Of a DNA stretch of 64,000 nucleotides, positions 42,677 through 54,180 are shown in pieces. The notes under the pieces were generated by a model. It worked only from the letters and a program-made list of their open reading frames with translations. It had not been told where the DNA came from and did no database searches. Each line of letters opens with the position of its first letter. Within the stretch, counting starts at the first letter, position 1. Where the stretch lies: NCBI RefSeq assembly GCF_014295415.1, contig NZ_CP052909.1:682001-746000 (forward strand). Reading direction: 5' to 3'. This DNA is from Constantimarinum furrinae (lineage in GTDB: Bacteria; Bacteroidota; Bacteroidia; Flavobacteriales; Flavobacteriaceae). A program made the position numbers and the translations under genes.

Positions 42677-43993
42677 ATGTCTACTAAAACAGTGCCTTAC
42701 ACAGCGTATAAAGTAAAAGATATTTCCCTTGCCGATTGGGGGCGTAAAGAAATTGAACTGGCCGAAGCAGAGATGCCCGGATTAATGTCGCTTCGTGAGG
42801 AATATAAGAACGAACAACCCTTAAAAGGTGCGAGAATTGCAGGGTGCCTACACATGACCATTCAAACGGCTGTATTGATCGAAACACTTCAGGCCTTGGG
42901 TGCAGAAGTAACCTGGAGCTCATGTAATATCTTCTCTACTCAGGATCAGGCGGCTGCAGCTATTGCCGCTACCGGAACTCCGGTGTATGCCTGGAAAGGA
43001 ATGACCGAAGAAGAATTTAACTGGTGTATCGAACAAACCTTGTTCTTTGGTGAAGAGCGAAAACCGCTTAATATGATCCTGGACGACGGAGGTGATCTTA
43101 CCAATATGGTATTCGACAAATATCCCGAGCTTGCAAGCGGAATTAAAGGATTGAGTGAAGAAACCACCACGGGAGTTCACCGTTTATACGAAAGAATGAA
43201 CAACGGAACACTGGTAATGCCCGCTATAAATGTGAACGACAGTGTTACCAAATCTAAATTCGATAATAAATACGGATGCCGCGAGAGTGCTGTAGATGCC
43301 ATTCGACGTGCTACCGATGTAATGCTTGCCGGAAAACGCGTTGTTGTGTGCGGATACGGGGATGTTGGTAAAGGTACAGCGGCTTCTTTTAAAGGTGCCG
43401 GTTCTATTGTAACGGTTACCGAGATCGATCCTATTTGTGCGCTACAGGCTGCCATGGACGGTTTTGAAGTGAAAAAACTGGAAACCGTACTGGACAAGGC
43501 AGATATTGTGATCACCACTACCGGAAATAAGGATATCGTAACCGGAGCGCATTTTAAGGCAATGAAAGACAAGACCATAGTGTGTAATATCGGACATTTT
43601 GATAATGAGATCGCCGTATCCTGGTTAAACAAGAACTATGGCGATACCAAAGTTGAGATCAAACCTCAGGTGGATAAGTACACCATCGATGGCAACGACA
43701 TCATTCTATTGGCCGAAGGACGATTGGTGAATTTAGGATGTGCTACGGGACACCCGAGTTTTGTGATGAGTAATTCATTTACCAACCAAACTCTGGCACA
43801 GATCGAGTTGTGGAAGAACAGTGATAAATACGAAAACAAAGTATATATGCTACCAAAACATCTTGATGAGAAAGTAGCCAAGTTACACCTTGAGAAAATT
43901 GGTGTAGAGCTTACCGAACTGCGCAAGGAACAAGCCGATTATATTGGCGTAAATGTTGAAGGACCGTACAAGCCGGAATACTACAGATATTAA
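42677..43993 (+). CDS. ahcY: Adenosylhomocysteinase
   Basis: A 438-residue NAD-dependent enzyme that splits S-adenosylhomocysteine into homocysteine and adenosine. Seen are [22 protein letters not shown] near residue 53 (split), [19 protein letters not shown] with the catalytic Lys/Asp, and the NAD-binding [10 protein letters not shown] near residue 225. The C-terminus KPEYYRY is the usual ending. A strong terminator follows. Confidence 0.98.
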
Positions 43994-44018
43994 TCTAATT
44001 ATTGTTCTAATACGAAAC

Positions 44019-44050
44019 GACCCTCGCAGCGATGTGAGGGTCTTGTTTTT
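44019..44050 (+). terminator. Rho-independent terminator of ahcY
   Basis: A ten-base stem pairs GACCCTCGCA with TGTGAGGGTC around a GCGA tetraloop, followed by TTGTTTTTT. Repeat copy A begins directly after the T run. Confidence 0.93.
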
Positions 44051-44180
44051 TAGGGCAATTACTACTACGGTAAACCTTCGTAGTACCGCGCTTTCCGCTG
44101 TATCTCAGTAGTAATCGTAAAGCGAGCTTCGCGCTACTTTATCGGCACTACAGAGGATGCCGCTGCAATCGCTATTGCAA
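44049..44180 (+). repeat. Dispersed structured repeat, copy A
   Basis: It begins TTTAGGGC, has the core GCGCTTTCCG (44088-44097) and ends with GCTGCAATCGCTATTGC. Stem 1 pairs TACTACG (44063-44069) with CGTAGTA (44079-44085). Stem 2 pairs GTAGT (44108-44112) with ACTAC (44147-44151), and an inner GCGA/TCGC hairpin lies between. It follows the ahcY terminator in the same orientation. The blocks and stem positions match copies B and C. No protein is encoded. Confidence 0.72.
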
Positions 44181-44241
44181 AACAACTTTAACAGGTTTAC
44201 GCTCACTAATTTGAATAAATTTTCGTTATGCTGTTATACTA

Positions 44242-44886
44242 ATGCATTTGACGTTGAAAAAACTAAGTATTTTCCTTTTAATGGTCTTCATCGGCTTTTC
44301 GGCTATGGCTCAGACTTCACGAGCTAATACGAGCAGGAAACAAGTCATTTCAGAAAAGACCACCACCGGAGCTCTGGCACGTGCCATTACAAAAAACAGC
44401 AAATCGGATGCTGAGAAGGTTCAGGCGATTTTCTACTGGATCGCAACAAATATTTCATACGATCACGAATTGCAAAACAGCCGATCCCTCCAACAGGAGA
44501 TCTATCGTTCGGAAGAAAACGTTATTAAAAATGTATTGCAGCGAAAAAAGGCGCTTTGTGGAGGTTATGCTTTTCTGTTTAAGGAATTATGTGAACGCGT
44601 GGGGATTTCTTCCGAAGTAATCCACGGTTACAGTAAAAAATACAGTGGGAAAGTGGCTAAAGACCCAAAAGTGGATCACTCCTGGAATGCCGTTAAACTA
44701 AACGGAAAATGGCAGCTGCTGGATGTGAATTGGGCTGTGAGTCAGAAGTTGAATTCAGGTATCAACACTTACTGGTACTTAACGCGCCCCGAGCATTTTA
44801 TCTACACCCATTATCCCGAAGATCCCAGATGGACCCTCTTAAAACATCCACCATCCCGGTCCGAATTTCTGGGTGCCTCCAAATAA
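44242..44886 (+). CDS. Secreted transglutaminase-like protein
   Basis: A 214-residue protein with a signal peptide (cleavage after about AMAQ) and a transglutaminase-like domain. The catalytic order is complete: RKKALCGGYAFLF (Cys near residue 109), KVDHSWNAVKL (His near 147) and LLDVNWA (Asp near 162). It would act in the periplasm as a protease or crosslinking enzyme; the substrate is unknown. It is monocistronic and not related in neighbourhood to the transglutaminase-like gene at 7747. Confidence 0.85.
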   Translation: MHLTLKKLSIFLLMVFIGFSAMAQTSRANTSRKQVISEKTTTGALARAITKNSKSDAEKVQAIFYWIATNISYDHELQNSRSLQQEIYRSEENVIKNVLQRKKALCGGYAFLFKELCERVGISSEVIHGYSKKYSGKVAKDPKVDHSWNAVKLNGKWQLLDVNWAVSQKLNSGINTYWYLTRPEHFIYTHYPEDPRWTLLKHPPSRSEFLGASK

Positions 44887-51886: not shown

Positions 51887-53431
51887 GTGAACTACGAATT
51901 AATTATCAGATCCAGTTCACAAGAAGTTGATTTTGCCCTTTTAAAAGATGGAAAACTTATTGAATTAAATAAGGAGGAAGAAAACAACAAGTTCGCGGTA
52001 GGAGATATTTATCTTGCCAAGATCAGAAAAACAGTTCCGGGCCTCAATGCCGCATTTGTAAATGTGGGTTACGAGAAAGATGCATTTTTGCATTATCACG
52101 ACCTGGGACCTAAAGTTGCTTCCTTATTGAAGTTCATTAAACGTGTAAGCACAGGTAAACTTAGAGACTATTCTCTAAAAGATTTCCCATTTGAAAAAGA
52201 GATTGATAAAAACGGAGGCATTAACGACGCCCTTAAATCCAATCAATCTATTCTGGTACAAATAGTAAAAGAACCCATTTCCACCAAAGGTCCTAGAATA
52301 AGTTCAGAGCTGTCAATAGCCGGACGATATATTGTTCTGGTGCCGTTTTCGGACCGGATTTCTATCTCTCAAAAAATAGAATCCAAAGAAGAAAAGGACA
52401 GGTTAAAACGCTTAATTACAAGCATAAGACCTAAAGGATTTGGAGTGATCATACGCACTGTAGCAGAGGGCAAAAAAGTAGCAGAACTGGATAGAGATTT
52501 ACAAAATCTCGTGGATCGCTGGACAGCGATGTGCAAAAAGCTACAAGGAGCACACCATCCTTCAAAGGTGTTGAGTGAGTTAAACAGAGGATCATCGATG
52601 ATCAGAGATGTTTTTAATGACAATTTTACAAACATCCATATAGACGACGAAGCTTTGTACTTACAAATAAAAGATTATGTGCAGGAAATCGCACCTAATA
52701 AAGAGAATATTGTTAAGTTATATGATTCTAAAGTTCCCATTTTTGAAAAATTCGGGATCGAAAGACAGATTAAAACTTCCTTCGGAAAAACAGTATCTGG
52801 CAGTAAAGGAGCCTATCTGGTGATCGAACATACGGAAGCCATGCACGTCATTGACGTGAACAGCGGTAACCGTAGTAACAAATCGAAAAACCAGGAAGAT
52901 ACCGCCCTCGAGGTCAATTTAATTGCCGCGAGCGAAGTAGCAAGACAATTACGTTTACGGGATATGGGAGGCATAATCGTTGTCGATTTTATCGACATGA
53001 GTCATGCCGGAAACCGCAAAAAACTCTATAATCACCTTCGTGAAGAGATGAAGGACGACAGAGCAAAACACAAGATCCTACCCCCCAGTAAATTCGGGTT
53101 GATTCAAATTACCCGACAACGCGTAAGGCCTGAAATGAATATTAAAACTCGCGAAGAAGACCCCAACATTGGTGTCGACGGCGAGATTGAAGCGCCTATC
53201 ATCGTTGTACAACGAATTACCGAAGAGCTTAAAAGACTCTTCAAAAAAGACTATAAAAAGATTACGTTAAATACGCATCCTTTTATAGCAGCCTTTTTAA
53301 CAAAAGGATTTCCATCTGTGCGAACCAAGTGGTTCATGGAGCACAAAAAATGGGTTAAAATTCAACCTAGAGACGCTTACACGTATCTTGAATATCACTT
53401 CCTCGATAAAAACGGAGAAGAGATAAAATAA
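51887..53431 (+). CDS. rng: Ribonuclease G/E family endoribonuclease
   Basis: A 514-residue RNase G. An S1 domain covers about residues 38-115 (VGDIYLAKIRKTVPGLNAAFVNVG), and the catalytic centre has IDVNSGNRS near residue 323 and IVVDFIDMSHAGN near 364, holding the metal-binding Asp residues. The zinc-link CPxCxG of E. coli RNase E/G is missing; its place reads RQRVRPEMNIKTREEDPN, and only one Cys exists in the whole protein. The start is a GTG at 51887. The ATG at 51880 is out of frame. A structured leader of about 170 bases precedes it. Confidence 0.95.
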   Translation: MNYELIIRSSSQEVDFALLKDGKLIELNKEEENNKFAVGDIYLAKIRKTVPGLNAAFVNVGYEKDAFLHYHDLGPKVASLLKFIKRVSTGKLRDYSLKDFPFEKEIDKNGGINDALKSNQSILVQIVKEPISTKGPRISSELSIAGRYIVLVPFSDRISISQKIESKEEKDRLKRLITSIRPKGFGVIIRTVAEGKKVAELDRDLQNLVDRWTAMCKKLQGAHHPSKVLSELNRGSSMIRDVFNDNFTNIHIDDEALYLQIKDYVQEIAPNKENIVKLYDSKVPIFEKFGIERQIKTSFGKTVSGSKGAYLVIEHTEAMHVIDVNSGNRSNKSKNQEDTALEVNLIAASEVARQLRLRDMGGIIVVDFIDMSHAGNRKKLYNHLREEMKDDRAKHKILPPSKFGLIQITRQRVRPEMNIKTREEDPNIGVDGEIEAPIIVVQRITEELKRLFKKDYKKITLNTHPFIAAFLTKGFPSVRTKWFMEHKKWVKIQPRDAYTYLEYHFLDKNGEEIK

Positions 53432-53436
53432 GAATT

Positions 53437-53471
53437 ACCCTCCTTGGCGTAACGTTATGGAGGGTTTTTTT
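53437..53471 (+). terminator. Rho-independent terminator of rng
   Basis: ACCCTCC and GGAGGGT pair around fifteen bases, ending in seven T. It begins 5 bases past the rng stop. Repeat copy B starts ten bases later. Confidence 0.92.
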
Positions 53472-53480
53472 ATGTCCTTT

Positions 53481-53600
53481 TTTAGGGCGTTCCAGTGAAG
53501 TAAAACTTCGTTTACTTCCCTGTCGGGCTTTCCGGGCTACACGCTTGCCCGCCAAAGCGAGCGAAGACGAGGTAGCTTCCTTCAATCCCTAACGCAGTGT
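53481..53600 (+). repeat. Dispersed structured repeat, copy B
   Basis: It begins TTTAGGGCGT, has the core CGGGCTTTCCG (53524-53534) and ends with TTCAATCCCTAACGCA. Stem 1 pairs GAAGTAAA (53497-53504) with TTTACTTC (53511-53518). Stem 2 pairs GCTAC (53536-53540) with GTAGC (53572-53576), and CGCTTGC/GCGAGCG forms an inner stem. It lies 3' of rng in the same orientation. The stem sequences differ from copies A and C but keep pairing. No protein is encoded. Confidence 0.74.
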
Positions 53601-53691
53601 TTAAAGAACCTTCAAGTTAAAATCTGAAACCGGCTGCAGAAATATTCTTAAGAAAACACCAATCCACTTCCTTCCTCATATGCGGAATTTT

Positions 53692-53699
53692 TATCTTCG
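53692..53699 (+). promoter_or_regulatory. -7 box-like TATCTTCG, 4 nt before a GTG start
   Basis: One mismatch to TAnnTTTG, followed by four bases (CATA) and the GTG of recX at 53704. Confidence 0.42.
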
Positions 53700-53703
53700 C
53701 ATA

Positions 53704-54180
53704 GTGTCCACTCATACTACATATACCGTTGAAGAAGCCAAACGCCGTATGGAACGCTATTGCGTTTATCAGGAACGGTGTCATAAGGAGGTAAATCAAA
53801 AATTACGGGATATGCGAATGATCCCGGAAGCTATCGATATAGTTATCCATCATCTTTTACAACATGATTTCTTAAACGAATCCCGCTTTTCACAGGCTTT
53901 TGCCAGAGGAAAATTCAGAACAAAGAAATGGGGGAAAAAACGCATCATTCAGGAGCTCAAATTCAGGAATATTTCGCAATACAACATCAAACTGGCACTA
54001 AAAGAGATTACCGATCCGGAATACTTCAACACCTTTCACAGCTTGGCCGAAAAACGCTTTGCAAGTCTTACTTCAGAAAAAGACCTTCAGAAAAAAAGAA
54101 AAAAATTAGCCGATTACCTGCTCTATCGCGGTTGGGAGAGCCATCTGGTGTATGAAAAGATCAAAGAACTCATCGGGTAA
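53704..54180 (+). CDS. recX: RecX-family regulatory protein
   Basis: A 158-residue, all-helical protein that inhibits RecA filaments. It has three-helix repeats with TYTVEEAKRRMERYCVYQ, LLQHDFLNESRFSQAFARGKF (split) and KKWGKKRIIQELKFRNIS. The GTG at 53704 is preferred to the ATG at 53680, because a -7-like box sits between them and relatives start close to the TVEEA motif. No recA is in the window. Confidence 0.9.
   Translation: MSTHTTYTVEEAKRRMERYCVYQERCHKEVNQKLRDMRMIPEAIDIVIHHLLQHDFLNESRFSQAFARGKFRTKKWGKKRIIQELKFRNISQYNIKLALKEITDPEYFNTFHSLAEKRFASLTSEKDLQKKRKKLADYLLYRGWESHLVYEKIKELIG

Follow-up and report, generated by a model that had tools for sequence, protein, structure and literature searches.

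Three intergenic repeats related to Flavo-1 in Constantimarinum furrinae: architecture, folded strand and dispersal

Flavo-1 was described by Weinberg et al. in 2010 (PMC2864571; Rfam RF01705) and has since been carried in the literature as a probable RNA that lacks an assigned function. Transcriptome work could not explain it: in F. psychrophilum its matches lie sense or antisense to transcripts, with many others outside transcripts, and no consistent relation between both was found (PMC9723704). The Rfam model spans 76 positions, comprises a core and one arm (arm 2 below) and is classed as an sRNA gene ('Gene; sRNA').

Here we analysed a stretch of 64 kb from Constantimarinum furrinae (the window), in which an earlier note had pointed out three intergenic sites, named A, B and C, as copies of one unknown structured element. 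The three sites are real copies of one family. Instead of being unknown, they are in all likelihood (probability about 0.95) divergent members of Flavo-1, a repeat scattered between the genes of Flavobacteriales, whose Y-shaped fold belongs to the complement of the strand that had been read. The family is already partly in Rfam; the strand, the homology of the second stem and the idea of a function at gene 3' ends need correction. The features of the three copies are as follows.

44053-44178, folded strand minus: full element of copy A (outer stem, arm 1, core and arm 2)
44056-44059 paired with 44174-44177: outer stem of copy A, CAAT/ATTG
44063-44085, minus: arm 1 hairpin of copy A, stem TACTACG/CGTAGTA in plus reading (from the sequence)
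44088-44104, minus: first core half of copy A, GCGCTTTCCGCTGTATC on plus (from the sequence and column correspondence)
44105-44154, minus: arm 2 hairpin of copy A
44155-44173, minus: second core half of copy A, GGATGCCGCTGCAATCGCT on plus
53485-53595, minus: full element of copy B, outer stem CGTT/AACG
53536-53540 paired with 53572-53576: mid-helix of the core variant of copy B, GCTAC/GTAGC
395-489, folded strand plus: full element of copy C, with a core variant
414-418 paired with 434-438: core mid-helix of copy C, CATAC/GTATG

Copy A lies between ahcY and a transglutaminase-like gene (window 42677-44883) and copy B between an RNase E/G gene and recX (window 51887-54177), intrinsic-terminator-like hairpins preceding both.

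Family membership, covariation and architecture

An Rfam scan of the window at gathering thresholds (42 bits for Flavo-1) gave no match. In a permissive scan copy A matched Flavo-1 with 38.7 bits (E 5.7e-7, 44080-44183 minus), copy B reached only 17.2 bits, its match lying on the corresponding strand, and copy C gave no Flavo-1 match. The kinship with Flavo-1 that the earlier note had raised was borne out by the score of copy A and by a covariance model (R1), derived via RF01705 and built from an alignment of 21 copies, all from other genomes. R1 matched the three copies over its full length with 46.1 bits for A (44069-44178 minus; E in 64 kb 7.5e-10), 27.8 bits for B (E 3.9e-5) and 24.6 bits for C (395-466 plus; E 2.6e-4), and had no other match in the window. 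Through R1 the three copies share with Flavo-1 the core sequence, AGCGGCATCC...GATATAGCGGA with its pairs, and covarying core helices, the Rfam strand being the folded strand found here; copy A also has its arm 2 in common with L002, an RF01705-positive copy of the same genome. Over the 2.99 Mb genome R1 found about 15 credible places, and RF01705 about 9 credible copies, three of them over the gathering score (46.7-55.6 bits); a strict pattern search of the genome returned one match only, the pattern being too strict. RF01705 was matched in 30 of the 41 sampled genomes of the family and had no match in 11, copy number ranging from 1 to at least 70 where present. The analysis used the stricter copy sets alone, since early fuzzy searches included chance matches.

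Pairing is kept while the bases change, as had been proposed: 99.2% of the pairs in the R1 alignment are standard and 12 of 18 pairs changed on both sides, whereas none of 500 shuffles was equally good and sliding the alignment dropped pairing to 34-61%. The core position pair A12.C5 resembled a wobble when read on the folded strand, but its variation fits independence and it was therefore left out of the pair counts. Folding energies of single copies are weak evidence alone (z of -1.0, -1.4 and -2.4 for A, B and C), thus the case depends on comparison. Unremarkable energies of this kind would also fit a chance likeness of unrelated intergenic hairpins, an explanation that we regard as refuted by the covariation, by the matches of R1 in window and genome and by the spread over most of the sampled genomes.

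The full architecture, derived from about 200 copies, has a 4-5 bp outer stem, an arm 1 that is optional, and a core in two conserved halves with arm 2 between them; the core helix carries conserved mismatches and arm 2 is hypervariable. Rfam covers just the middle part of the element, to which the outer stem, the optional arm 1 and the core variants are added here. The outer stem shows at least 13 different perfect pairings among 70 copies, such as CGTT/AACG, GCTT/AAGC, TGTT/AACA and CAAT/ATTG, and the consensus ends are GGGCn.../...nGC and TTAGRAGC/GGGCTA. In copy A the core halves pair GCG/CGC, at the place where many copies have GGG/CCC, and arm 2 is partly common to own-genome copies at 629834 and 865377. 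What had been called stem 1 corresponds to the arm 1 stems and was confirmed in the sequence of all three copies, TACTACG/CGTAGTA being replaced by GAAGTAAA/TTTACTTC in B and ACTCGCC/GGTGAGT in C. Stem 2 stood in part: the pairings named for B and C form the core mid-helix, but GTAGT/ACTAC of copy A belongs to the distal arm, a different location, so this stem is not one homologous helix.

Three core variants (CAATC/GGATTTC, CAAGTCCTC/GGGCTTTCC and nnTACC/GTAnn) score poorly with the Rfam model or escape it. Copies B and C, together with own-genome copies at 2545346 and 283960, represent one of them, and its mid-helix nnTACC/GTAnn shows compensated change (GCTAC/GTAGC, CATAC/GTATG, ATTAC/GTAAT). 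A form devoid of arm 1, TTTTTAGRAGCTATTTC-core-arm 2-core-GGGCTA, occurs frequently in Flavobacterium, Polaribacter, Tenacibaculum and Chryseobacterium and often starts about 19 nt past a stop codon; L002 is of this type and sits between homogentisate dioxygenase-like and 4-hydroxyphenylpyruvate dioxygenase-like genes, named from their sequences.

Several copies depart from this plan. In L177 (~7275 minus), L181 (~5310 minus) and L163 (~7474) the second core half contains an additional arm of about 45 nt, always inserted at one and the same position, and another palindrome, TCCCGATAGCTATCGGGA-like, is nested within arms or core in L267, L116 and L166 of Flavobacterium. A second intergenic repeat, CCCCTCTTGAGAGGGGYTAGGGGTGTG, adjoins several copies of genome G033 (L063, L072, L077). 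In L191 (~4436) the reverse complement of the first core half stands in place of the second, making the copy a perfect palindrome that looks like a quasipalindrome correction or an assembly error.

The folded strand and its relation to transcription

A folded strand tolerates G.U or G.T and excludes A.C, its complement showing the reverse. Read on the strand of the earlier note, the 1358 cells of the core comprise 1322 Watson-Crick pairs, 20 A.C and 4 G.T (p 0.0015), and the isolated mismatches of arm 2 are A.C in 28 cases and G.T in 4 (p 2e-5), p values that are optimistic because related copies have some mismatches in common. This excess of A.C over G.T identifies the strand under selection as that of Rfam, thus the strand read previously was the wrong one. 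Accordingly, the C.T mismatches conserved in the core read as G.A on the folded strand, and its loops are of the GNA/GNNA type in 9 cases versus 0, with no GNRA in this small sample. This strand runs antisense to the gene upstream of each of the three copies A, B and C, and it is the one that folds regardless of the direction of neighbouring genes. The asymmetry is strongest in the ++ context (20 A.C, 0 G.T), and its persistence there, where both neighbours run antisense to the folded strand, makes it intrinsic to the element and independent of surrounding transcripts.

At 117 non-orthologous sites the contexts were ++ (49), -- (29), +- (23) and -+ (16), most tandem copies being antisense to their neighbours; the orientation of the element is not linked to transcription. 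The upstream gene had the same orientation at 72 of these sites (p ~0.016) and the opposite one at 38%. A position directly 3' of a gene and in its orientation, ascribed to every copy, thus holds for A, B and C but is only a weak tendency family-wide. These observations bear on the proposal that the repeat acts on the reader's strand as an mRNA 3'-end stabiliser or terminator, which would agree with the placement of the three copies, with the terminator-like hairpins ahead of A and B, and with the distance of the arm-1-less subtype from stop codons. We consider it very improbable: the selected pairing is antisense, a result that largely refutes it, the contexts are mixed, and terminators are not enriched beside the element (15/185 upstream versus 18/185 on the far side). 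A and B had also suggested that the element inserts behind intrinsic terminators, which was likewise rejected for want of overall enrichment.

A structured RNA made from the Rfam strand by its own or nearby promoters, and acting by protein binding or as an antisense at gene 3' ends, is possible though doubtful. The G.U-type wobbles and G.A mismatches of that strand are in keeping with it, the preference for G.T over A.C is equally expected of an RNA, and the structure has long been kept at orthologous sites. Moreover, 28 of 187 copies have a Bacteroidetes-type -7 box no more than 70 nt upstream of the folded strand, compared with 9-11 of 186 for three control regions; nevertheless, these promoter-like boxes concentrate in the -+ context, where the element separates a neighbouring gene from the promoter of that gene. 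Wobbles amount to 1.5% of core pairs, far under the 6.5% of 29 tRNAs encoded at the same loci. Neither strand has a T-run after the structure and the 3' end of the folded strand enters A-rich sequence, which also speaks against the small-RNA guess of the earlier note in a form with its own terminator, and most tandem copies lie antisense to their neighbours. Taken together, the rarity of wobbles, the mixed contexts, the lack of a terminator, the placement of promoter boxes and the published transcripts (PMC9723704) favour DNA over RNA, without proof; the loop types and the L191 palindrome were counted on the same side.

Dispersal, maintenance and exchange in place

The congeneric genomes G033 and G041 are ~82% identical where compared, and some copies of G033 are shared with G041 while others are missing at the syntenic places, although loss in G041 may also account for this. 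Such empty places, together with a copy number from 1 to at least 70 per genome, were counted for dispersal; "mobile palindromic element" was the guess of the earlier note that fared well. No target duplication was seen at the empty G041 sites, whose flanks are too diverged for base-level reading. In G033 a 3 kb block (L073:5366-8460), which has an almost identical direct copy of the element at each end and encodes surface-protein-like products and an AraC-type regulator but no transposase, is absent from G041 (L217:5371), where neither bounding copy remains. Within one three-gene dioxygenase cluster the element comes after the first gene in one genome (L043:1400-2200) and after the second in another genome (L122:2240-3000), each ~20 nt past the stop codon, and the different positions suggest separate insertions.

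Copies common to G033 and G041 keep core and outer stem while their arms are replaced. At a further site (Flavobacterium site 2) the element is present in 15 of 16 species, with flanks ~49% identical and core pairs intact in 100 of 105 cases, the five failures being due to one species' extra hairpin inside the core or to one mismatch. Here L265 and L266 have flanks 94% identical and differ in core variant and arm; L262 and L269, whose flanks are 89% identical, share an identical core and carry unrelated arms; and L262 and L264 have the same arm with coordinated core differences. These comparisons show that contents are exchanged in place. Base-by-base repair of pairing is seen as well, in the arm of L087/L161, where ATGGCG/CGCCAT became ATGGTG/CACCAT.

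Long maintenance at orthologous sites fits a selected site function as well as exchange. A cruciform or hairpin bound by a nucleoid, gyrase-like or repair protein, copied to new places yet kept as a site useful to the host, would be consistent with the compensatory maintenance at Flavobacterium site 2 and in L087/L161, with the independence from transcription, and with the outcome of the phage and plasmid searches (no copies in phage collections, one weak partial match only in plasmid collections). We hold such a host-beneficial structure to be quite unlikely, given a copy number from 0 to at least 70 within one family, 11 of 41 genomes without match and an inconsistent replication orientation (8 of 11 in the own genome, 2 of 9 in G014, i.e. 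opposite directions). A replication-strand bias was rejected on this same disagreement.

A proposed mechanism and comparison with known systems

The ~200 copies suggest a scattered DNA element whose shape is preserved over its sequence and whose parts are swapped in place, and not an ordinary small RNA. For a structure-conserved repeat acting at DNA level and spread by a putative enzyme, the likeliest of the mechanisms considered, we see a little under even odds. In such a scheme the folded strand, when single-stranded, would close into a Y formed by the variable outer stem, the optional arm 1, the core helix with its G.A mismatches and arm 2, and this closed Y would be recognised by its shape by a trans-acting enzyme. 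New copies would arise at A/T-rich intergenic sites flanked by T tracts, recombination or gene conversion between copies would swap arms, or entire elements, at existing sites, and selection for a recognisable shape would preserve pairing during base drift. The structure, its strand, the dispersal, the exchange in place and an orientation not linked to transcription are shown by the copies; the enzyme, the single-stranded DNA intermediate and gene conversion as the form of exchange are what we infer here. Counted against this mechanism are the lack of a linked or co-occurring transposase, the many copy-rich genomes without Y1, the lack of replication-strand bias and the near-absence from phage and plasmid collections. 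The Y1 transposase (PF01797) is absent from this genome and from copy-rich G003, G005, G017 and G039, and was rejected as the mover since it shows no association with copy number; no autonomous or split element with an internal gene was present in 1.2 Mb of loci. It is rather unlikely, on our estimate, that Flavo-1 goes further and is, instead of an RNA gene, a shape-defined DNA element at fixed chromosomal sites, with arms or whole contents exchanged between dispersed copies by an enzyme reading one folded DNA strand; such a recombination system would have no described counterpart in Bacteroidota. If Flavo-1 does belong with structure-recognised DNA elements, the annotation of many Flavobacteriales genomes would change and a new enzyme would be implied.

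The element resembles REP/BIME sequences with their RAYT transposases (IS200/IS605-like), as defined in PMC3733652, in being intergenic, with a high and variable copy number, an imperfect hairpin, conserved mismatches and one strand that matters. However, it is ~100 nt long rather than 20-40, has neither a GTAG nor a CGTC foot, its stem sequence is free, and the genome has no Y1 transposase and the family no correlation with it. MITEs such as ERIC and RUP are likewise non-coding, dispersed, of ~100-130 bp and with inverted ends, whereas here the inverted ends vary from copy to copy with compensation and no parental IS was found. With integron attC sites the element shares the importance of the shape of one folded strand and a variable terminal part, an analogy only, for it occurs as single dispersed copies and not in cassette arrays, and lacks RYYYAAC...GTTRRRY ends, its own being variable and often GTT...AAC, the reverse of attC. 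Together, the transcription-independent strand test, the full architecture, the core variants missed so far and the swapping of arms at fixed positions give a concrete and testable argument for placing Flavo-1 among structure-recognised DNA elements.
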